28,490 nt of DNA, taken from positions 1-28,490 of the IMG/VR virus record IMGVR_UViG_3300018414_000180, one strand, 5' to 3'. The position numbers were made by a program, and so were the translations under genes. Of this stretch, positions 13,370 through 26,894 are shown in pieces. The DNA comes from a virus. The notes beneath the pieces were generated by a model, which searched no databases, had not been told where the DNA came from, and was given only the letters and a program-made list of their open reading frames with translations. Position 1 is the stretch's first letter, and each line of letters opens with the position of its first letter.

Positions 13370-13389
13370 AAGTAATGAGAATTGCGCTC

Positions 13390-14025
13390 ATGGAAATTGG
13401 ACAGAGCATCAGAAAAGCGCGGAAAGCCAAAGGCTGGACGCTGGAAGAACTTGCGCACCAGGTCGGGTCTGACACTGGCAACTTGTCGCGCCTGGAGCGC
13501 GGCCTGCAGGGCGCAAGCCATGAAATGCTCAACAAGATCGTAAAGATTCTGGGCATTTCCTTTGAGCTGCCTCAGGACCCGGCCCTGGCCAACGTATCCA
13601 TGGCGCTGCAACCAGTGCGCGCAGAGAAGTCCTACCCATTGATCAGTTGGGTAGTAGCAGGAAACTGGGCAGAGTCCCCAGATTTGTATCAACCTGGAGA
13701 TGCTGAGGCGTGGTTGCCATCTACTGAAAACGCCGGAGAGAAAGGCTTTTGGTTGACCGTTCGCGGCGACTCGATGACCTGCACAGGCAATCCCTCTTTC
13801 CCCGAGGGCTCTAAAATCTTGGTCAAACCGGAGTCCGATTTGATCAGCGGCAAATATTACGTCGTGAAACTGCTAGACAGCGGCGAACAGACGTTCAAGC
13901 AGTACATTGAGGACGCTGGACACAGGTATCTCAAGCCCTTGAACCCGAACTACAGGACGATTGAAATCAACGGAGGCTGTCACTTTATAGGCCGTGTGAT
14001 CGATACAAAAATGACTGGGCTTTAA
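13390..14025 (+). CDS. cI: CI-like lysogeny repressor (LexA/S24 family)
   Basis: The 211-residue repressor has an N-terminal helix-turn-helix (MEIGQSIRKARKAKGWTLEE, with recognition region DTGNLSRLERG at 28-38). Its C-terminal S24 peptidase-like domain has the probable self-cleavage bond Ala90-Gly91 in SWVVAGNW, catalytic Ser128 in VRGDSM and Lys160 in GKYYVVKL. RecA-stimulated self-cleavage, and thus SOS induction, is expected from the family. I prefer the ATG at 13390 because the protein then begins like its relatives. An in-frame ATG at 13375 lies very close to the operators and would need a leaderless or very short-leader message. The next gene starts 2 bases after its stop. Confidence 0.9.
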   Translation: MEIGQSIRKARKAKGWTLEELAHQVGSDTGNLSRLERGLQGASHEMLNKIVKILGISFELPQDPALANVSMALQPVRAEKSYPLISWVVAGNWAESPDLYQPGDAEAWLPSTENAGEKGFWLTVRGDSMTCTGNPSFPEGSKILVKPESDLISGKYYVVKLLDSGEQTFKQYIEDAGHRYLKPLNPNYRTIEINGGCHFIGRVIDTKMTGL

Positions 14026-16272: not shown

Positions 16273-16563
16273 ATGAGCAAGCACACTCCAGGGCCTTGGC
16301 ATGCCAAAGGCCCCGACGACTTCTGGGACTTCAACATTTTGCACGGCGGCGACTCCTTGGCCGTCGCCGCTGTCGTTTCAAACATGCGCCCATTGGACGA
16401 AATCACTGCCAATGCCCGGCTGGTCGCGGCAGCACCCGAGTTACTCGCTGCCCTTCAAGACTGCGTGGCTGTGATGGAACAGGACCTGGCCGGCTTGCGC
16501 GTTATCCAGCCAGAGCTGAACCAGGCCCGGGCCGCCCTGGCTGCGGCAAGGGGTGACCTGTGA
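16273..16563 (+). CDS. Conserved SKHTPGPW-type phage protein
   Basis: The 96-residue protein starts MSKHTPGPWHAKGPDDFWDF and has the block EITANARLVAAAPELLAALQ. The HTPGPW start and the NARL(V/I)AAAPELL motif define a small family very common in phages and prophages, with no known function. AGGTG stands 6 bases before the ATG. Its end overlaps the start of the nuclease gene. It is helical in its second half (QDCVAVMEQDLAGLRVIQPE). Confidence 0.8.
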   Translation: MSKHTPGPWHAKGPDDFWDFNILHGGDSLAVAAVVSNMRPLDEITANARLVAAAPELLAALQDCVAVMEQDLAGLRVIQPELNQARAALAAARGDL

Positions 16564-17366
16564 ACAGTCCTATCAAGGTCCGCGCGTCCTCCTGGGGCTC
16601 GCTGTTCAACTGCGGCTATGCCTGGGAGTACACGCATATCCTCGGGCACCGATCCCCCAGCAGCCCGCGGGCCCAGCTGGGAACGGCTATTCACGCCAGC
16701 ACCGCCGCATTCGACGCGGCAAGGATCAACGGCAGCGACCTGTCGGCCTTCGATACCGCCGAGCTGCTGCTGCACACGCTGCGCAATCCTGAGTACGACG
16801 TCGACTGGCGCGGCTCCGATATCACCCTGGCCCAGGCCGAAGCCACGGGCCTGCAGCTGCACACTCGCTACTGCAACGAGATCAGCCCCCGTTATGAGTT
16901 CCAGGCAGTGGAGCTGACCACCAAGCCGCTGGAGATCGATTGCGGCGGTGGCGTGATCATCCAGCTCACGGGCCAGCTCGACCGGGCGCGGATCTGCAAG
17001 ACGGGTCACGGTGTTGGTATCGCCGACGTGAAGACCGGCGGCGCCGCAGTCAGCCAGGGGGTGGCGAAGACCAAGGGCCACGCCCCGCAGATCGGCACCT
17101 ACGAAATTCTCTACGAGCACACCACCGGCGAGCCCATCACCGCCCCGGCACACATCATCGGGCTGAAGACAAAGGGCAAGCCGGAAACCGGTATCGGCGA
17201 AATCAGCGGCGCCAAGCAAATGATGGTCGGAACCGAGGAATTCCCCGGCCTGATCCAGATCGGCGCCGAAATGCTCCGCTCCGGCCTGTTCCCCCCAAAC
17301 CCCCAGAGTTTCACCTGCTCGGCGAAGTACTGCCCGCGCTGGTCCACCTGCCCCTACCACGAGTAA
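16560..17366 (+). CDS. Cas4/RecB-like PD-(D/E)XK exonuclease with Fe-S cysteines
   Basis: The 268-residue protein starts at GTG 16560. It has the RecB-type nuclease layout: GTAIHAS (His45), LTGQLDRARI (Asp141), IADVKTGG (Asp156 and Lys158) and QIGTYEI (Gln177/Tyr181 motif). Cys18 in LFNCGYAW plus Cys253, Cys258 and Cys264 in FTCSAKYCPRWSTC match the four ligands of the 4Fe-4S cluster in AddB/Cas4 nucleases. It probably resects DNA ends for the RecT-like annealing protein encoded one gene downstream. No CRISPR genes are present, so a recombination role is the better reading. Confidence 0.87.
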   Translation: MNSPIKVRASSWGSLFNCGYAWEYTHILGHRSPSSPRAQLGTAIHASTAAFDAARINGSDLSAFDTAELLLHTLRNPEYDVDWRGSDITLAQAEATGLQLHTRYCNEISPRYEFQAVELTTKPLEIDCGGGVIIQLTGQLDRARICKTGHGVGIADVKTGGAAVSQGVAKTKGHAPQIGTYEILYEHTTGEPITAPAHIIGLKTKGKPETGIGEISGAKQMMVGTEEFPGLIQIGAEMLRSGLFPPNPQSFTCSAKYCPRWSTCPYHE

Positions 17367-17372
17367 CCGTCA

Positions 17373-17582
17373 ATGAAAGCCCAAGACGTCTACATCCGCC
17401 TCATTGATCCGACCGGAAAACATCGCACGGTCATCAACCACCACCGCGTTTGGGACCGCGAGCGGTTCTACCAGGCCCAGGTCAAGCTGTACGAAGACCC
17501 GAAGAAAAAGATCGAAGACCGCCGCCTGGTCCAGACAGCCACAGAAAACGACTACAACGAAGCCCGGAGGGCAAAGCCATGA
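17373..17582 (+). CDS. Small hypothetical protein between nuclease and annealase
   Basis: The 69-residue basic protein starts MKAQDVYIRLIDPTGKHRTV and ends RRLVQTATENDYNEARRAKP, with a helical region RVWDRERFYQAQVKLYEDPK. It lies 6 bases after the nuclease stop, and its own stop overlaps the RecT-like start (ATGA). The ribosome site is weak. It might be a partner of the recombination pair, but no family is recognised. Confidence 0.7.
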   Translation: MKAQDVYIRLIDPTGKHRTVINHHRVWDRERFYQAQVKLYEDPKKKIEDRRLVQTATENDYNEARRAKP

Positions 17583-18511
17583 CTCAGCCCACCACCCTGG
17601 CGCAGATGCAGACCAGCGCTGTAGCCAAGCCAAACGACGCCCCCATGTCGCTGCTGACCGGCTCCGGCTTCGATCAGTTGCAGAGGGTCGCGAAGGCGCT
17701 TTGTGCTTCCACGTTGGTGCCTGCACAGTACCGCGCATTCACTGAAGTGAAAGCCTACGGCAAGGTGACCGGACACAACCCAAACCCTGCCGGCCTGCCC
17801 AACTGCGTTGTGGCGCTGAACATGGCCATGCGTATGGGTGCCGACCCGCTGATGGTCATGCAGAACCTGTACGTGATCGAGGGCCGGCCAAGCTGGTCCA
17901 GCCAGTTCATCATCGCTGCGATCAATAGTTGCGGCCGATTCAGCCCGCTGCGCTTCGAACTGAGCGAGCCGGGAAAAGATCAGGTCGTGAAGTACAAGGC
18001 CGTGGTCTGGAAGAACGACAAAAAGACCGAAGAGCCCCGCGAGGTCACCATCCAGCACCGCACCTGCCGTGCCTGGGTGATCGAGAAAGAAACCGGCGAC
18101 CGCCTGGACGGGCCCACCGTATCCATGCAGATGGCTATCGATGAGGGCTGGCTCACCAAGAACGGCAGCAAGTGGCAGACGATGCCAGAAATCATGCTGC
18201 GTTACCGGGCGGCGAGCCTATTCGGCCGGCTGTACGCGCCTGAGCTGCTGATGGGCCTGCAAACCCAGGAAGAGGTCCACGACTTCATCGACGCCACTCC
18301 GGACGGTGCCGGTAATTACGCGGTCGATCTCAACGATCTGCGCAACAAGGAGCCTGAGCCGCCGGCGATCCTCGACCAGGAGGACGGCCCGGGCGACGCA
18401 CCCGAGACAGCCCCCCTTGAAACCGAGACGAAAGCAGCCGAAACCGCAACGGACCAGGCTGAACCCGCAACAGCTGATGCAGATCTACCCGACGATCTGG
18501 CGTTCGAGTAA
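17579..18511 (+). CDS. RecT-like single-strand annealing protein
   Basis: The 310-residue protein has the order of motifs seen in RecT-type annealases: LQRVAKALCASTLVPAQYR, then NCVVALNMAMRMGADPLMVM, then QNLYVIEGRPSWSSQFIIAA and, toward the C-terminus, EIMLRYRAASLFGRLYAPEL. The tail is acidic and Ala/Glu/Thr-rich and ends DADLPDDLAFE, as in proteins that contact SSB or nucleases. It pairs complementary single strands during phage recombination. GGAGG 8 bases upstream supports the ATG at 17579. The neighbouring Cas4-like nuclease would supply the single strands. Confidence 0.82.
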   Translation: MTQPTTLAQMQTSAVAKPNDAPMSLLTGSGFDQLQRVAKALCASTLVPAQYRAFTEVKAYGKVTGHNPNPAGLPNCVVALNMAMRMGADPLMVMQNLYVIEGRPSWSSQFIIAAINSCGRFSPLRFELSEPGKDQVVKYKAVVWKNDKKTEEPREVTIQHRTCRAWVIEKETGDRLDGPTVSMQMAIDEGWLTKNGSKWQTMPEIMLRYRAASLFGRLYAPELLMGLQTQEEVHDFIDATPDGAGNYAVDLNDLRNKEPEPPAILDQEDGPGDAPETAPLETETKAAETATDQAEPATADADLPDDLAFE

Positions 18512-19809: not shown

Positions 19810-21573
19810 ATGCGCCTGAATCATCTTTTCATCGAGAACTTCCAGGGCCTGCGCCTGGCGAACCTGGATCTGCACGCCCCCATCACTCTGGTGGCCGGCC
19901 CGAACGGCGCCGGCAAGTCCAGCCTGCAGGAAGCAATCAACCTGGCGCTGGGCGGCCAGGCGCGGGTGGCCTTGAAGAAGGACTACAAGCAGCTGATCAC
20001 CGATGGCCAGGACAAGGCCCAGATCATCGTCAGCCACGACGACGTGGCCAGCAGCTACACCCTGCCGGCCGGCAAGGGCGACCACACCACCGCCACAGGC
20101 GACGAGTACCTGCCTTACGTTCTGCGCCCGGCCACCTTCGCCGCCCTGGACGACAAGGCCCGCCGAAAAATGCTGTTTGCCCTGACCAAGTCCAGCAGCA
20201 AACCCCAGGTTGTGGTCGACAAGTTGCTGGCCAAGGGCGCCGACGCCGGCAAGGTCGATAAAATCAAGCCGCTGCTGTTGAGCGGCTTTGCCGCTGCGCA
20301 GGACCAAGCCAAGGCATACGCCAGCGAAAGCCGCGGTGCCTGGAAGGCAACCACCGGCGAGAACTACGGCAGCGAGAAGGCCGAAGGCTGGATCGTCACC
20401 ATTCCCGCACTGCCAGACGGCGCCCCGGAGGTCACCCAGGACGACCTGGCCCAGGCTCAAGCGGACCACGCCAAAGCAGTCGAGGAAATCGGCAAGGGTG
20501 ATCAGCACCTGGGCGGCCTGCACACCCGGCGCGATGCCGCTGCAACCCACGAAACCCGGAAAGCCCAACTGCAAGAAACCTTCTCCCAGCTGGAGCGGCG
20601 CAAGGCCAAGCTTGAAGCCACCAACAAGGAGCTGGAAGGCTGGAAATCCAAGGTCAGCGAAGCGGAAGTGCAGGTGCAGGCCTACAACGGTGAAAGCCCC
20701 TGTGAGTGCCCGAGCTGCCACGTCAAGCTGAAGGTTGTCGGGCGTCTGGTCGAGCTGTTCAAAGGCAAGACCGCCGACGCGGCCAAGCTGGCCACCGCCC
20801 AGGCGGAACTCAAGAAAGCGAACGAGGCCTACAGCCTGCTGACCCGCACCCAGGTCAACGACCAGAAGGCGGTCACAGAGGCCGAACAGGCCGGCCGTGA
20901 CCTCGCCGCCCTGGACAAGTCCGCCGGCGAGCCGGTGACCGACGCAATGCTCAAGCGTGTGGAAGATGCAATACAGGTACAGCGCAAGCTGCGAGACACC
21001 GCCCACGCCAAGGTCGAAGCCATGCGCGAACGCCTCGACCTGATCGCCACAGCCACGCAGAAGGCAGCAGACGCCGCCGGCCATCATGCCGACCTCAAGG
21101 CCTGGACCCTGATTGCCGACCTGCTGGCACCCGATGGCATTCCGGGCGAGATCCTGGCCGGCGCCTTGAAGCCCTTCAATGACAGCTTGGCCAAGGGGTC
21201 ACAGGTTGCCGGCTGGCCGCTGGTACAGATCACCGCCGACATGGCGATCACCGCCGGCGGGCGCGCCTACACGTTACTGTCGGAGTCGGAGCGCTGGCGT
21301 GTCGACGCCCTGCTGGCCCTGGCCATCGCAGAGCATTCAGGCCTGCGCTTCCTGGTCCTCGACCGCTTCGACGTGCTCGACCCGCCCCCCCTGCCCGCTC
21401 GCGGTCAGCTGTTCCGCCTGCTGATGGCGGCCAACAAGGCCGGAACCCTGGACAGCGCCATTGTCTGCGGCACCTTGAAAGAGAAGCCCGCCAAGCTGCC
21501 GCCAGAAATAAACGCGGTCTGGATCGAGAACGGCATTGCCGGCGGTGACCAGCAGTTGCAGAAAGCCAGCTGA
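19810..21573 (+). CDS. SbcC/Rad50-like ATPase
   Basis: The 587-residue protein begins MRLNHLFIENFQGLRLANLD and has the Walker A motif GPNGAGKS at 30-37. Long helical segments (about 210-290 and 320-430) flank a Cys pair, CPSC, at 300-303 with an extra Cys298. This looks like the zinc hook of Rad50/SbcC. The C-terminal head has the signature-like LLSESERWRVD (489-499) and a Walker B-like FLVLDRFDVLD (514-524). The usual Asp-Glu after the strand is replaced by Asp-Arg, which may alter hydrolysis. No SbcD nuclease is adjacent, but a DnaQ-like exonuclease follows. It probably acts in phage DNA end processing. Confidence 0.85.
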   Translation: MRLNHLFIENFQGLRLANLDLHAPITLVAGPNGAGKSSLQEAINLALGGQARVALKKDYKQLITDGQDKAQIIVSHDDVASSYTLPAGKGDHTTATGDEYLPYVLRPATFAALDDKARRKMLFALTKSSSKPQVVVDKLLAKGADAGKVDKIKPLLLSGFAAAQDQAKAYASESRGAWKATTGENYGSEKAEGWIVTIPALPDGAPEVTQDDLAQAQADHAKAVEEIGKGDQHLGGLHTRRDAAATHETRKAQLQETFSQLERRKAKLEATNKELEGWKSKVSEAEVQVQAYNGESPCECPSCHVKLKVVGRLVELFKGKTADAAKLATAQAELKKANEAYSLLTRTQVNDQKAVTEAEQAGRDLAALDKSAGEPVTDAMLKRVEDAIQVQRKLRDTAHAKVEAMRERLDLIATATQKAADAAGHHADLKAWTLIADLLAPDGIPGEILAGALKPFNDSLAKGSQVAGWPLVQITADMAITAGGRAYTLLSESERWRVDALLALAIAEHSGLRFLVLDRFDVLDPPPLPARGQLFRLLMAANKAGTLDSAIVCGTLKEKPAKLPPEINAVWIENGIAGGDQQLQKAS

Positions 21574-21595
21574 CGACCAAACACGCACACCACAC

Positions 21596-21618
21596 GGCGC
21601 CTACGGGCGCCTTCTTTT
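21596..21618 (+). terminator. Intrinsic terminator after the SbcC-like gene
   Basis: GGCGCC, TACG, GGCGCC and TTCTTTT form a 6-bp GC stem with a short T tract in the gap 21574-21634. It may reduce transcription of the exonuclease and methyltransferase genes downstream. Confidence 0.68.
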
Positions 21619-21634
21619 CGCCTGGAGAAAACCA

Positions 21635-22246
21635 ATGTCCGACCTGATTTGCGTCTTCGACACCGAAACCACCGGCCTGCCCAAGTTCAAAGATCCCAGC
21701 GATCACCCCGATCAACCCCACATCGTGGATATCTGCGCCCTGCTCTACACGCCCCTGGGTGTGCTGGTTGACTCGTTCGAGGCAATGGTGCGGCCAGACG
21801 GCTGGACCATCCCAAACGACGTGTCGGTAATTCACGGCATCGACGATGTCATGGCCTTGGAACATGGGATCGACGAAGGCCTGGCCCTGGAAGGATTCAT
21901 GGATATCTGGCGGCGGGCCGGCCTGCGCGTGGCGCACAACGTTTCATTCGACGACCGCATCTTGCGGATCGGATTGAAACGCTTTTTCGGCGACGTTGCG
22001 GCCGACGAATTCAAGGCCGGACCGAAGTACTGCACCTGCCAGAACAGCACCAACCTGGTGAAGTGCCCGCCCACTGAAAAGATGATCGCCGCCGGCCGGG
22101 GCCTCCAGTTCAAGCAGCCATCCGTTGCCGAGGCCCTGCTGCATTTCACGGGTGAAGAGCTGATCGGCGGCCACCGCGCGCGACCCGATGCCGAGGCTTG
22201 CGCCCGTGTGTACTTCGCGTTGAACCCACCCGCTCAAGTTGCCTGA
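21635..22246 (+). CDS. DnaQ-like DEDDh 3'-5' exonuclease
   Basis: The 203-residue protein begins MSDLICVFDTETTGLPKFKD, giving the first acidic pair of the DEDD family (FDTETTGL). The second motif appears in VAHNVSFDDRIL and the last in HRARPDAEACARVYF, with His and Asp in the DEDDh spacing. A long insertion of cysteines and basic residues (KYCTCQNSTNLVKCPPTEKM) is unusual compared with the short DnaQ core. GGAG lies 8 bases before the ATG at 21635. It probably trims single strands during phage recombination or recycles host DNA. Confidence 0.88.
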   Translation: MSDLICVFDTETTGLPKFKDPSDHPDQPHIVDICALLYTPLGVLVDSFEAMVRPDGWTIPNDVSVIHGIDDVMALEHGIDEGLALEGFMDIWRRAGLRVAHNVSFDDRILRIGLKRFFGDVAADEFKAGPKYCTCQNSTNLVKCPPTEKMIAAGRGLQFKQPSVAEALLHFTGEELIGGHRARPDAEACARVYFALNPPAQVA

Positions 22247-22303: not shown

Positions 22304-24097
22304 ATGATGCTCAAGCGAGTTTTTAAACACTTCCACTTCTGCTGCGGCCTCGGCGGCGGCGCCAAGGGCTTCAACCGGGCCAGGTCCGTAGTCGGCAACA
22401 TGCTGGGCACTTGGCAGTGCATCGGGGGCGTCGACGTTGACCCGGTCGGCCTGCGCGACTTCGAACGCCTCGCCGGTGTCCCGGGCACCCAACTGGACCT
22501 GTTCACCCGGGATCAATACGTTCGATTCCACGGGAAAGAGCCACCACCAGGGTGGCGCGAGGCAACAGCAGAGGACATTCGCCGGGCGGCCGGGTGTCAG
22601 CGACCCGATGCGATATTCATTTCCAGCCCCTGCAAAGGCGCTTCGGGCCTGCTGTCCGAGAAAATGAGCCTCACACCCAAATACCAAGCCCTGAACGAGC
22701 TGACGCTGCGCTGCATCTGGTTGATGGGCGAGGCCTGGCCAGATGATCCTGTGCCGTTGATCGTCTTCGAAAACGTGCCACGGCTCGCTACCCGCGGACG
22801 GCACCTGCTGGACCAGATCAACAAGCTGCTGAGCCACTACGGCTATGCCTCGGCTGAAACCACCCACGACTGCGGCGTCATCGGCGGCCTGGCCCAGAGT
22901 CGCAAGCGGTTCCTGCTGGTGGCCCGCCACATCGAGAAGGTGCCGCCCTTCCTGTACGAGCCTGAGAAAAAGTCGCTCAAGTCAGTGGGTTCGATCCTTG
23001 GCCGCATGCCGATGGCCGGAGATATTGAGGCCGCGGGGCCCATGCACCGCGTGCCGTCACTGCACTGGAAAACCTGGGTGCGCTTGGCGCTGGTCCAGGC
23101 CGGCAAGGACTGGCGCAGCCTGAATGACCTGGCCATCGAGGGCGGGTATCTGCGCGACTTCGTGATAGTGCCCGAGGCTTACGGCGGCTATCTGGGGGTG
23201 AATAAGTGGGACGACTCAATGGGCGTTGTCGCCGGCCGGAGCCGGCCAACCAATGGCGCGTTCTCTGTGGCAGATCCACGGGCCAGGGACGGCGCCCTGC
23301 AATACCAGCAGTACGGCGTGCGGCGCTGGGATGAAACCAGCGGCGCGGTGATCGGCGTCAAGTCGCCCGGGCAAGGGACGTTCAGCGTTGCCGACCCTCG
23401 ACCTGCAGGTGTTCGACACAACAACGTGTACCGCGTCTGCAAGATGGACGGCCCCGCCGGCACAGTCACCGGCGGCCAGTCCCCAAGCGCCGGCGGCCAA
23501 TGCATTGCAGACCCTCGGCGCCCGGGCGAAGGCTTTGGCAAGTACCTGGTGACGCCTTGGAACCAAGCGGCCGGCACTGTGATTGCCGGCAGCACCACCG
23601 GACAGGGGGCATTTGCTGTTCAAGACCCAATGCCCGGCATGAAGCGGGTGAAGGGAGACGCCTACCTGACCGGCGGCCATTACGGGGTTGTCGACTGGAA
23701 CGGCCAGGCCGGAGCTGTTTCGGCGAGCGCACGCCAGGATAACGGTCGCTGGTCCGTCGCAGATCCGCGTATGCCAGAGCCCAGTGAAAAGCTCACCTGC
23801 GTAATCGAAAGCCTCGATGGCACCTGGCATCGCCCCTTCACCACACTGGAGCTGGCCGCCCTGCAGAGTCTGGTCGAGCCCGAGGAATGGCTTGAGCTGG
23901 ACGGCCTGAGCGACCAGGCCTGGCGGGAGCGAATCGGTAACGCAGTCCCACCAGCAGCGGCCGAAGCGATCGCCCAGGTCATGGGCACCACGCTCCTCCT
24001 GGCCGAGGCCGGCGAGACGTTCATGCTCAACAGCATGCCGGTCTGGGTTCAGCCCGTAGCGATCGCGCTCAGCCTGGCCCAGCAAGAAAACCAATAG
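22304..24097 (+). CDS. Large C5-cytosine DNA methyltransferase with tandem repeats
   Basis: The 597-residue protein has the ordered motifs of C5-cytosine methylases. These are the SAM-binding loop FCCGLGGGAKGF (12-23), the catalytic Cys110 in ISSPCKG, Glu156-Asn157-Val158 in VFENVPR, the QSRKR motif (198-202) and the C-terminal RIGNAVPP (543-550). Between the catalytic and C-terminal parts, where the target-recognition domain lies, there are five repeats of about 30-45 residues (roughly 298-490). Each has an aromatic/W-D start, a GAV/GTV core and an end like FSVADPR. AAGGA 8 bases upstream supports the first ATG. It likely modifies phage DNA against host restriction; no partner restriction enzyme is visible. 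Confidence 0.9.
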   Translation: MMLKRVFKHFHFCCGLGGGAKGFNRARSVVGNMLGTWQCIGGVDVDPVGLRDFERLAGVPGTQLDLFTRDQYVRFHGKEPPPGWREATAEDIRRAAGCQRPDAIFISSPCKGASGLLSEKMSLTPKYQALNELTLRCIWLMGEAWPDDPVPLIVFENVPRLATRGRHLLDQINKLLSHYGYASAETTHDCGVIGGLAQSRKRFLLVARHIEKVPPFLYEPEKKSLKSVGSILGRMPMAGDIEAAGPMHRVPSLHWKTWVRLALVQAGKDWRSLNDLAIEGGYLRDFVIVPEAYGGYLGVNKWDDSMGVVAGRSRPTNGAFSVADPRARDGALQYQQYGVRRWDETSGAVIGVKSPGQGTFSVADPRPAGVRHNNVYRVCKMDGPAGTVTGGQSPSAGGQCIADPRRPGEGFGKYLVTPWNQAAGTVIAGSTTGQGAFAVQDPMPGMKRVKGDAYLTGGHYGVVDWNGQAGAVSASARQDNGRWSVADPRMPEPSEKLTCVIESLDGTWHRPFTTLELAALQSLVEPEEWLELDGLSDQAWRERIGNAVPPAAAEAIAQVMGTTLLLAEAGETFMLNSMPVWVQPVAIALSLAQQENQ

Positions 24098-24447: not shown

Positions 24448-25425
24448 ATGAACGAGAGAGAGCGCTACTCAAGACTCGAACCACTTTCAATAAAAAAACA
24501 AATATACCTAGCTAGAGAGGCATGCAGTTACTTCTCCCCATTAAACTACCCAGAGGCATGCAGAGAAAAAGGAGAAAAAATCGGCAACACCATAAAATCA
24601 CTGTCAATCACTGACTTTATGACCCACTTATCCTCAAATAAAAAGCTTGAAGAGCCGTTCAAATACTACTTCAGGATAAAGCAACTTCTTGACTCGCTTC
24701 ACCAAGCTGGAATTTTGACCAGCACGTCCCATCAATCTTATATTTTCATTAAAGAATACACTAAAATAGAAGAAAAATTTTCGCTCTGGCTAGCTCCCGC
24801 ACTAGGCCCTAAATTTATAAAGTACATTTATGAAACCTCAACAATACATATAACCGGAAAAACCGATAAAAATGACGCTCATGCCGGAACAGGAATATTA
24901 GTTAACAATACGCAGATAATTACATGTGCGCACGTTATTAACGACATGATTCTGGACACAGAGCAGATAGTTAATGGAGCATCTCGAAAAGTACTAAAAA
25001 AAGAAGTACATCCCAAAATTGATGTTGGATTAATTACACTAGCCGACCATACGGACCAGCCTTTACCACCAGTAGCGTTCCGTGACCCAGAAATTGCAGA
25101 GCGCGTACATACACTTGGCTACCCTAGAATACCACTTTCTCGGGAACCAGCATTAATAATGCAAAGTGGCGAGGTTGTTTCCGAAAAAATAAAAACAATA
25201 CCTGGTGACGATGTTTTTTTGTATTCCGCTATCGCCCGCCCTGGCAATAGTGGAGGACCAATTATCTCAGAAAGCGGCCACATTGTTGGGATTGTCTCTC
25301 AAGATCTATCGAATAAAGACTCACAAGATGCTCCGTTCTACGCAGGAGTACCGACATCTCTCATTCAGCAGGCGCTACTCGACCTTGAATCAGGAATACA
25401 GCTACCAATCGAAAATTACCAATAG
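24448..25425 (+). CDS. Intracellular trypsin-like serine protease (cargo gene)
   Basis: The 325-residue protein has a chymotrypsin-fold protease domain from about residue 130. His162 stands in ITCAHVIN, Asp192 in KIDVGLI and Ser268 in ARPGNSGGPI, a full catalytic triad in the order seen in HtrA/trypsin_2 peptidases. There is no signal peptide or membrane anchor and no PDZ domain, so it should act in the cytoplasm. Residues 1-125 are helical and unassigned; LLDSLHQAGILTSTSHQSYI could be a small winged helix or adaptor domain. AAAGGA 6 bases upstream fixes the ATG. AT-rich codons contrast with the backbone. It converges on an ATPase gene. A defence effector role is inferred. Confidence 0.88.
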   Translation: MNERERYSRLEPLSIKKQIYLAREACSYFSPLNYPEACREKGEKIGNTIKSLSITDFMTHLSSNKKLEEPFKYYFRIKQLLDSLHQAGILTSTSHQSYIFIKEYTKIEEKFSLWLAPALGPKFIKYIYETSTIHITGKTDKNDAHAGTGILVNNTQIITCAHVINDMILDTEQIVNGASRKVLKKEVHPKIDVGLITLADHTDQPLPPVAFRDPEIAERVHTLGYPRIPLSREPALIMQSGEVVSEKIKTIPGDDVFLYSAIARPGNSGGPIISESGHIVGIVSQDLSNKDSQDAPFYAGVPTSLIQQALLDLESGIQLPIENYQ

Positions 25426-25655: not shown

Positions 25656-26894
25656 CTATTTTTTTGGACGAGAGCCAAACAACTTGATCCATAGGGCAAA
25701 GCCGCGTTGCTGTAGTCGATACTCACCTATTTTTGATGGATTCTTAAGAATTATTTTCCTTGAAGTAAGAGCTTTAAGCGCATCAGTCAATGTCTGATCA
25801 TCACCTGTAAACTTATGCCGAATGTCACTTTTCTTAATCCAATCACTCATATTTTCGGCCATAATCATCAACACCTGCCGATACTCATCAGACTTAATTT
25901 TAGAATGATAATCTGTCGCATAATAACGTGACCCAATAGAGTCAAGCGCCCCACCTTCTTTGAAAGCCCCTTCAAGAACATCATCGGCCGAAATCTCGCC
26001 ATCTGAATTATGTTCATACGCAGAGTGAGCAAACTGCTGAATAAAGTGAGGATATCCCTCAGACAAATTAGCGACGTGATCCTTTGCATAATCGCCCATC
26101 GCAGTCTGTTCATTATTTATTTTATTTCCCTCAGCAATCCCTCGATCAAGGACATACTTTGTATCCGCAAAGCTTAATTCTTTAACACTAAGGTGATTGA
26201 AAATCCTGATTGATGACTCGTGTGACTTCGCCAACTTCTCTACAATATCCGGCAACCCTGCCACTACAAACATGACTCGCTCACAACCATGCTGCTGAAG
26301 CATTTCTGTAACAGCTTTAAAAAAGTAGCCTACATGTAGACTCGGACTCGCATTGTCAGCCTCATCAATAATAAACACTATCCCATCCTTGGATAACTCA
26401 CCTTTTTCCGGATTGGATATACGATTACAAGTTTGAGTTAGTGAATATGCAAAATCATCAATAACAATATCAGCATCATCAATCACTTCGGCCTTTTCCA
26501 AGCCGGAGTCCATCAGCTTTAAACGCTGAACAAAAGACCAAGTATCGGCAAGAAACTTCCTGACTGTTTCTGTCTTCCCCAACTCACGACTAATACTTTT
26601 CTCTATCAACCGAATCAGAGTGAGCAAGCTAGTACGTTCGGAAACGATCACATTTACAGCAATAAAATTAAAAGTGCCGAGACCACTCGGAATATCACCA
26701 ACCGCAAGATGCCTCAACAAATTCATTAGCGACGATTTACCGATACCGCGCTCACCAGTAATCAATACATTTGATGGAAATCCATTTTTTGTTTGAAGCA
26801 ACGCTTTCTCAAGAGCACGTATTTCCTTTACGCGCCCAGCGAACATACCACTACTGACTGGACTATTTGGTTTAAACGGATTGATTTTACTCAT
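25656..26894 (-). CDS. Orc1/AAA_16-type ATPase with C-terminal winged helix (cargo gene)
   Basis: The 412-residue protein starts MSKINPFKPNSPVSSGMFAG and has the FAGR..EI..L start of Orc1/Cdc6-like AAA ATPases. Walker A is GERGIGKS (47-54), Walker B IVFIIDEAD (172-180), and a sensor-1-like strand follows (MFVVAGLP, 208-215). A lid region with LSEGYPHFIQQFAHSAYE (277-294) completes the ATPase. Residues 335-412 resemble a winged helix (DALKALTSRKIILKNPSKIG). AGGGA 7 bases before the ATG supports the start. Codon use is AT-rich, as in the convergent protease gene. ATPases of this type act as switches or sensors; a sensor or regulator role here is inferred. Confidence 0.87.
   Translation of the reverse strand: MSKINPFKPNSPVSSGMFAGRVKEIRALEKALLQTKNGFPSNVLITGERGIGKSSLMNLLRHLAVGDIPSGLGTFNFIAVNVIVSERTSLLTLIRLIEKSISRELGKTETVRKFLADTWSFVQRLKLMDSGLEKAEVIDDADIVIDDFAYSLTQTCNRISNPEKGELSKDGIVFIIDEADNASPSLHVGYFFKAVTEMLQQHGCERVMFVVAGLPDIVEKLAKSHESSIRIFNHLSVKELSFADTKYVLDRGIAEGNKINNEQTAMGDYAKDHVANLSEGYPHFIQQFAHSAYEHNSDGEISADDVLEGAFKEGGALDSIGSRYYATDYHSKIKSDEYRQVLMIMAENMSDWIKKSDIRHKFTGDDQTLTDALKALTSRKIILKNPSKIGEYRLQQRGFALWIKLFGSRPKK

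Follow-up and report, generated by a model that had tools for sequence, protein, structure and literature searches.

A gene for a cytosine-5 (C5) DNA methyltransferase in the viral DNA analyzed here raises the question of why five tandem repeats lie where such enzymes usually carry their target-recognition domain. The window, i.e., the whole stretch of DNA under study, comprises 28,490 nucleotides (IMG/VR record IMGVR_UViG_3300018414_000180, positions 1 to 28,490). A sequence-only reading of the gene had observed that C5 methylases ordinarily have a single compact target domain. As a rule this is correct; exceptions among phage C5 methyltransferases, in the form of tandem recognition domains, have been known since the 1980s. 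The reading that we favor, with a probability of roughly three in four, is an orphan, multispecific C5 methyltransferase of a temperate phage, which uses five minimal recognition domains for anti-restriction; its activity, motif assignment, module docking and benefit to the phage are what we infer.

Catalytic Domain and Repeat Array of the Window Enzyme

The open frame at 22304–24097 (+) encodes a protein of 597 amino acids, which is organized as follows.

22304–24097, + strand: predicted orphan multi-module DNA (cytosine-5) methyltransferase (PF00145, PHROG, PADLOC, and Foldseek matches)
22304–23140, + strand: catalytic domain, residues about 1–279 (invariant residues; AlphaFold pLDDT)
23189–23281, + strand: module 1 core, residues 296–326, near-fixed first type, YLGVNKWDDSMGVVAGRSRPTNGAFSVADPR (module profile)
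23309–23401, + strand: module 2 core, residues 336–366, near-fixed second type, QYGVRRWDETSGAVIGVKSPGQGTFSVADPR (module profile)
23426–23518, + strand: module 3 core, residues 375–405, interchangeable type, VYRVCKMDGPAGTVTGGQSPSAGGQCIADPR (module profile)
23540–23632, + strand: module 4 core, residues 413–443, interchangeable type, KYLVTPWNQAAGTVIAGSTTGQGAFAVQDPM (module profile)
23678–23770, + strand: module 5 core, residues 459–489, near-fixed last type, HYGVVDWNGQAGAVSASARQDNGRWSVADPR (module profile)
23813–23983, + strand: motifs IX (RPFTTLELAALQSL) and X (RIGNAVPPAAAEAIA) (match to PF00145 positions 270–322; AlphaFold pLDDT 82–97)

The protein matches PF00145 above the Pfam cut-off (E 2.5e-11), PHROG 116 (DNA methyltransferase; E 3.6e-52), phrog_32684 (E 9.9e-145) and the PADLOC model MTase_II (E 9.6e-16). 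Motifs I (FHFCCGLGGGAKGF), IV (SSPCKG, including the catalytic Cys110), VI (FENVPR), VIII (QSRKRFLLVA), IX, and X are present in the canonical order of C5 methyltransferases. Residues C110, E156-N157-V158, R200, and R202 are invariant across 109 diverse homologues, as are T513, E516, Q521, and G545-N546 in the motif IX–X region. In the AlphaFold model built with these homologues, pLDDT in the catalytic domain is mostly 86–98 up to residue 260, with one block at 77. A Foldseek search with the modeled catalytic domain retrieved M.HaeIII (1dct; E 1.3e-9), M.HhaI (2i9k; E 2.8e-9), and DNMT1/MET1 structures (down to E 1.5e-12), whereas a sequence search of PDB with the full-protein profile gave no match, so that the fold search alone succeeded. 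As judged from its sequence and modeled fold, the protein is a C5 methyltransferase with the Rossmann-type fold of M.HhaI, M.HaeIII, and DNMT1, and methyl transfer is predicted. A reverse-strand gene at this locus was rejected: the minus-strand reading in register is broken by internal stops, and minus-strand ORFs in other frames are disfavored by the conserved plus-strand protein.

The sequence-only reading had placed five degenerate repeats at residues about 298–490, and the module profile agrees, locating the five cores between motifs VIII and IX at residues 296–489 (window 23189–23770). The W-D start, GAV/GTV core, and SVADPR-like end that it described are also borne out, except in module 4, which ends in VQDPM. 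In pairwise comparison, the 31-residue cores share 10–16 identical residues, and their mean BLOSUM62 pair score is 61.5, compared with 18.1 ± 1.2 (maximum 22.4) for shuffled cores (1000 shuffles). A scan of the catalytic domain for internal repeats found nothing comparable to the array. The repeats of the window array are almost invisible at the DNA level, which indicates a protein-level repeat rather than a recent DNA duplication.

Copies of the module were found by profile in all homologues. The 934 unique cores yield the consensus Y-x-V-x-x-W-[DE]-x-x-[AS]-G-T-V-x-[GA]-x6-G-x-x-[SA]-V-A-D-P-R, in which columns 4–5 and 16–20 are hypervariable. Modules follow one another at a regular spacing of 35–47 amino acids; the linker is mostly 6–17 residues and its ADPR motif is conserved. 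Structure prediction, which had been proposed as a check, was of use for one part of the protein: the catalytic domain is modeled confidently in the 109-homologue run, but array pLDDT is 20–53 over two AlphaFold runs (44 close homologues; 109 diverse homologues) and about 35–53 in the 109-homologue run. Given these low values, we draw no conclusion on module structure. The module profile matched no solved C5 methyltransferase in PDB, and the only sequences that it retrieved, fragments of NF-kappaB (E about 0.2), are taken as chance matches.

By its predicted gene content, the window is a temperate phage. Pfam matches among its ORFs include an S24-type repressor, a PD-(D/E)XK nuclease, RecT (a weak match), an SMC/RecN-type ATPase, an RNase T-type exonuclease, a head-tail connector, and a tyrosine integrase; temperate-phage gene regions were noted at 13375–14022, 16560–18508, and 19810–22246. 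Two further genes lie between the methyltransferase and the integrase: a trypsin-like peptidase gene (24448–25422, +; PF13365, E 1.6e-18), whose protease part is also matched by PADLOC RT-Protease_XI and LmuA, and an AAA_16/NACHT-like ATPase gene (25659–26894, −). Their domain types and proximity to the integrase suggest that both could be prophage-borne defense cargo. A Pfam search of the ten ORFs neighboring the methyltransferase gene in this 28.5 kb fragment found no restriction enzyme.

Modules as Candidate Target-Recognition Domains

The array occupies the usual place of the target-recognition domain, between motifs VIII and IX. In known C5 enzymes, the C-terminal part of this domain has the consensus [YFW]x[RK]x5P[STCA]PT[ILV][TASV] and lies 10–50 amino acids before motif IX, and the structures of M.HhaI and M.HaeIII define the DNA-contact scheme NNNx10TLx3CCC around its TL dipeptide (PMC2413257). 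Each module of the window enzyme contains a TL/TV-like dipeptide in the published register, and the last such pair lies about 40 residues before motif IX, within the published range. Across the 934 unique cores, a mean of 4.20 of the eight anchors of the TL consensus are found at the predicted register, whereas shuffling the cores lowers this mean to 1.21 and no other offset exceeds 2.15. At the [RK] position, two residues after [YFW], the anchor occurs in 0% of these cores (V or I stands instead), and the second P is present in 8% of modules.

The positions that distinguish module types are concentrated around the dipeptide. Type-separating information is high at columns −7 to 0 (with a peak of 2.49 bits at column 0), at columns 16–20 and at column 24, i.e., in flanks just upstream and just downstream of the TV pair, whereas the framework columns contribute little. 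The type definition made no use of columns −7 to 0, so that the result is non-circular there; for columns 1–30 it is partly circular. The N-TL and C-TL contact triplets, as defined on M.HhaI and M.HaeIII, fall within the variable flanks. These triplets are all different in window modules 1–5 (GYL/SRP, QQY/KSP, NVY/QSP, GKY/STT, and GHY/ARQ, in order), and in interior modules the flank variants are conserved within a module type across different backbones.

The sequence evidence is best read as an array of minimal target-recognition domains, one per module, in a multispecific enzyme, with an independent specificity predicted for each module from its sequence. Several specificities are favored because of the TL register, the type-specific variation of the contact flanks, the precedent of Bacillus phages, and the relaxed specificity published for enzymes that are related to array-bearing ones (see below).

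Exchange of Modules Among Phages and Plasmids

The family occurs in 36 phage records (mostly Pseudomonas, plus Marinobacter, Achromobacter, and Sinorhizobium PBC5) and in 167 plasmid records, 66 of which are conjugative, with carriers in Pseudomonas (including pWW0), Roseomonas, Burkholderia, Bacillus, Paenibacillus, and others; Pseudomonas genomes and hundreds of viral contigs carry it too. In Pseudomonas phage PA8 (L342), the methyltransferase copy is broken: two pieces cover 59% of the query and no full-length gene is annotated. The gene adjoins rdgC, which encodes a recombination-associated protein, in two plasmid-borne cases (L072, L073). In four records (L067, L077, L079, L066), a second DNA methyltransferase gene lies near the multi-module gene, perhaps extending protection; it is annotated as a SAM-dependent, adenine, or site-specific DNA methyltransferase, and in PBC5 by a signature note.

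Module number was compared among homologues, as the sequence-only reading had advised, in 258 non-identical proteins from phages, prophages, plasmids, and genomes, a sample biased to Pseudomonas. It ranges from 2 to 10: five modules are the most frequent (109 proteins), followed by six (62) and four (51), and the remaining proteins have two (2), three (12), seven (11), eight (4), nine (6), or ten (1). Clustering of the modules at a distance of 0.45 gave 17 types with at least 10 members and 102 architectures among the 258 proteins; types depend on this threshold. The near set was clustered at 0.40, and type letters differ between the two sets. At the evolutionary level, these figures give good support to the suggested modular recognition array. 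Arrays of the near set begin with two almost fixed types and end with another, and between them stand interchangeable types, in an order that is also permuted (BADFEC in 35, BAFDEC in 3). The near-fixed first, second, and last types are seen across Proteobacterial members; some of these modules may serve as structural caps and not as readers, or they may provide universal specificities.

Architectures differ even where catalytic domains are 98–100% identical (L040 BAGI and L044 BAI; L006 BAFDC and L054 BADEC; L001 BAFDC and L002 BAFDEC). Between such near-identical enzymes, one whole module has been inserted, removed, or replaced, and at the DNA level the difference is a single in-frame segment of 117–126 nt, i.e., one module. 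The segment is 120 nt in L040/L044, where the catalytic domain is 100% identical, 126 nt in the window and L002, and 120 nt in L049/L063. The near relative L053 is without the module 3 of the window, and both L002 and L053 have one extra module following the module 4 position. A tree of catalytic-domain DNA from 193 genes requires at least 78 changes of architecture and 46 of module number, counts that undetected recombination within the catalytic domain could inflate. Single interior modules have been gained or lost 11–21 times each on this tree, the fixed second type 9 times, and the last type 4 times.

At the module ends in L040/L044 there is an 11-bp direct repeat (GCCGACCCGCG) that encodes the ADPR end; in other pairs the corresponding repeat is 0–6 bp. 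A search of the window array for tandem DNA repeats found none over the array. Slipped-strand or DNA-repeat origin was judged less likely on these grounds, and the restriction of the 11-bp repeat to L040/L044 favors exchange between the arrays of related elements over slippage. The suggestion that recombination changes specificity is sustained at the evolutionary level by the whole-module differences between near-identical genes, and on the best reading the set of specificities evolves through module exchange.

Multispecific Reading, Its Alternatives, and Known Systems

In the proposed mechanism, a single catalytic domain (motifs I–VIII, then IX–X) would be served by five recognition domains of ~38–46 amino acids. 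The module framework, Y-x-V-x2-W-[DE]-x2-[AS]-G-T-V … V-A-D-P-R, would offer DNA two variable stretches, before and after TV, which may act like the loops around TL250 of M.HhaI and TV238 of M.HaeIII. One module would dock beside the active site per event and choose its own short cytosine-containing motif, while the linkers with their conserved ADPR would keep undocked modules out of the way. Phage DNA would thereby be methylated at several motifs, which would potentially protect it from several host restriction enzymes.

C5 methyltransferases such as M.HhaI and M.HaeIII flip one base, and there is room for one recognition element at the active site. This geometry bears on the idea that the modules lie side by side on DNA and jointly recognize one long or bipartite target, as repeat-based DNA-binding arrays do. 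The regular 35–47-residue spacing, the conserved ADPR linker, and the near-fixed first, second, and last types would suit such a cooperative structure, but site length would then change each time a module is gained or lost, whereas arrays have 2–10 modules and single ones come and go on near-identical enzymes. Since the interior order is also permuted, with both D-F and F-D found, and only one recognition element fits next to an active site that flips one base, joint recognition is very unlikely. A different division of labor, in which the last module alone (or the fixed modules alone) would read DNA and the interior repeats serve as non-specific binding elements or spacers that relax specificity or raise processivity, is rather unlikely. 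It fits the nearly fixed last type, whose distance from motif IX is the canonical one, and the published descriptions of enzymes of a related array family speak of relaxed specificity, not of multiple discrete motifs; yet the interior modules share the TL register and show strong type-specific variation of the contact flanks, for which spacers would have no need.

The broken copy in phage PA8 could point to a methyltransferase in decay, or the array could be hypervariable for a reason other than specificity, e.g., to evade an inhibitor or immune sensor of the host. Both notions are highly improbable, as the frame of the window copy is intact and none of its catalytic residues is missing, and variation falls on positions that in known C5 enzymes are turned toward DNA.

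The principle of a multispecific C5 methyltransferase is already known, and what sets this family apart is its homologous, shuffled module library; searches of open-licence papers returned no description of these modules, which may have been described elsewhere. Whether the family amounts to a recombining library of DNA-reading modules of about 40 amino acids, shared by phages and plasmids of Proteobacteria and Bacillota, is in our estimate evenly balanced: this broader view would entail chains of 2–10 modules, put together by each element for itself on a common methyltransferase, with one short motif per module, contact positions that form a decodable and transplantable code, and arrays that are a widespread anti-restriction strategy rather than a Bacillus peculiarity. 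If it is true, one enzyme family would let mobile elements adjust their protection against many restriction systems, and the ‘relaxed specificity’ reported for phage m5C enzymes would be explained. The natural one-module variants would be ready-made experiments for assigning a DNA motif to each module, specificity encoding by C5 recognition domains could be tested on hundreds of natural modules, and a swappable toolbox for targeted cytosine methylation would be available. The annotation ‘DNA cytosine methyltransferase’ with a single motif would then miss most of the activity of such genes.

Type I HsdS specificity subunits contain exchangeable recognition domains, two of which read one bipartite site, and the methylation subunit is separate. 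As is proposed for the window family, specificity is changed by recognition-domain exchange, but the proteins are unrelated and the likeness is one of analogy only. M.HhaI and M.HaeIII share with the window enzyme the catalytic fold, the motif order, and a TL/TV dipeptide whose contact triplets stand at a fixed distance from it (PMC2413257), but have one recognition domain rather than five.

In Bacillus temperate phages, several recognition domains are arrayed in one methyltransferase, which protects from many restriction systems (PMC12707154; PMC5923457; PMC8936443). Phages SPR, phi3T, SPbeta, rho11, and H2 encode orphan C5 enzymes with one core and several tandem TL/TV domains between motifs VIII and IX, a layout that is shared by the window enzyme, itself a predicted orphan. 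In the SPbeta/phi3T enzyme, two TL units (‘KRVYSPEGLSPTLTT’ and ‘RRFKENGEPAFTVNT’) can be recognized by eye in the same place as the window array; the module profile did not match the SPbeta/phi3T multispecific enzymes even at E 1000. Unlike the Bacillus-phage enzymes, the window family has mutually homologous modules with an ADPR framework, in 2–10 copies that are freely recombined across phages and plasmids.

The m5C enzymes of relaxed specificity from phages of Alpha- and Gammaproteobacteria form a more distant group, which like the window enzyme belongs to phrog_116 and has tandem modules (5–8) around a P-x-x-T-[VI]-T core, but in which the module framework is DEPxxTVT…LV, of about 32–40 amino acids, without ADPR. 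The ARM81, RR1-A, and PBC5 records match PHROG 116, as does the window enzyme. The tandem arrays of this group contain eight modules in Pyei1_p05 and RR1-A and five in phi2LM21_p23, ARM81mr (ARM81mr_p29), and ARM81ld (ARM81ld_p31); its records are L338, L339, L340, L343:2480-4501, and L344:2468-4312. An hhalign comparison of distant-group and window modules puts their TV positions in register, at an insignificant E of 0.17. In E. coli, expressed phi2LM21_p23 showed no activity (PMC5537653). The m5C methyltransferases JCM7686_0772 and _2655 give partial protection of CCNGG, CCWGG, AGCT, CCGG, and other sites (PMC3925955), and the phage homologue Pyei1_p05 is 69% identical to them (PMC6536676). 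By analogy, this multi-site protection fits what a tandem recognition array would predict, such arrays being known from relatives such as Pyei1_p05.
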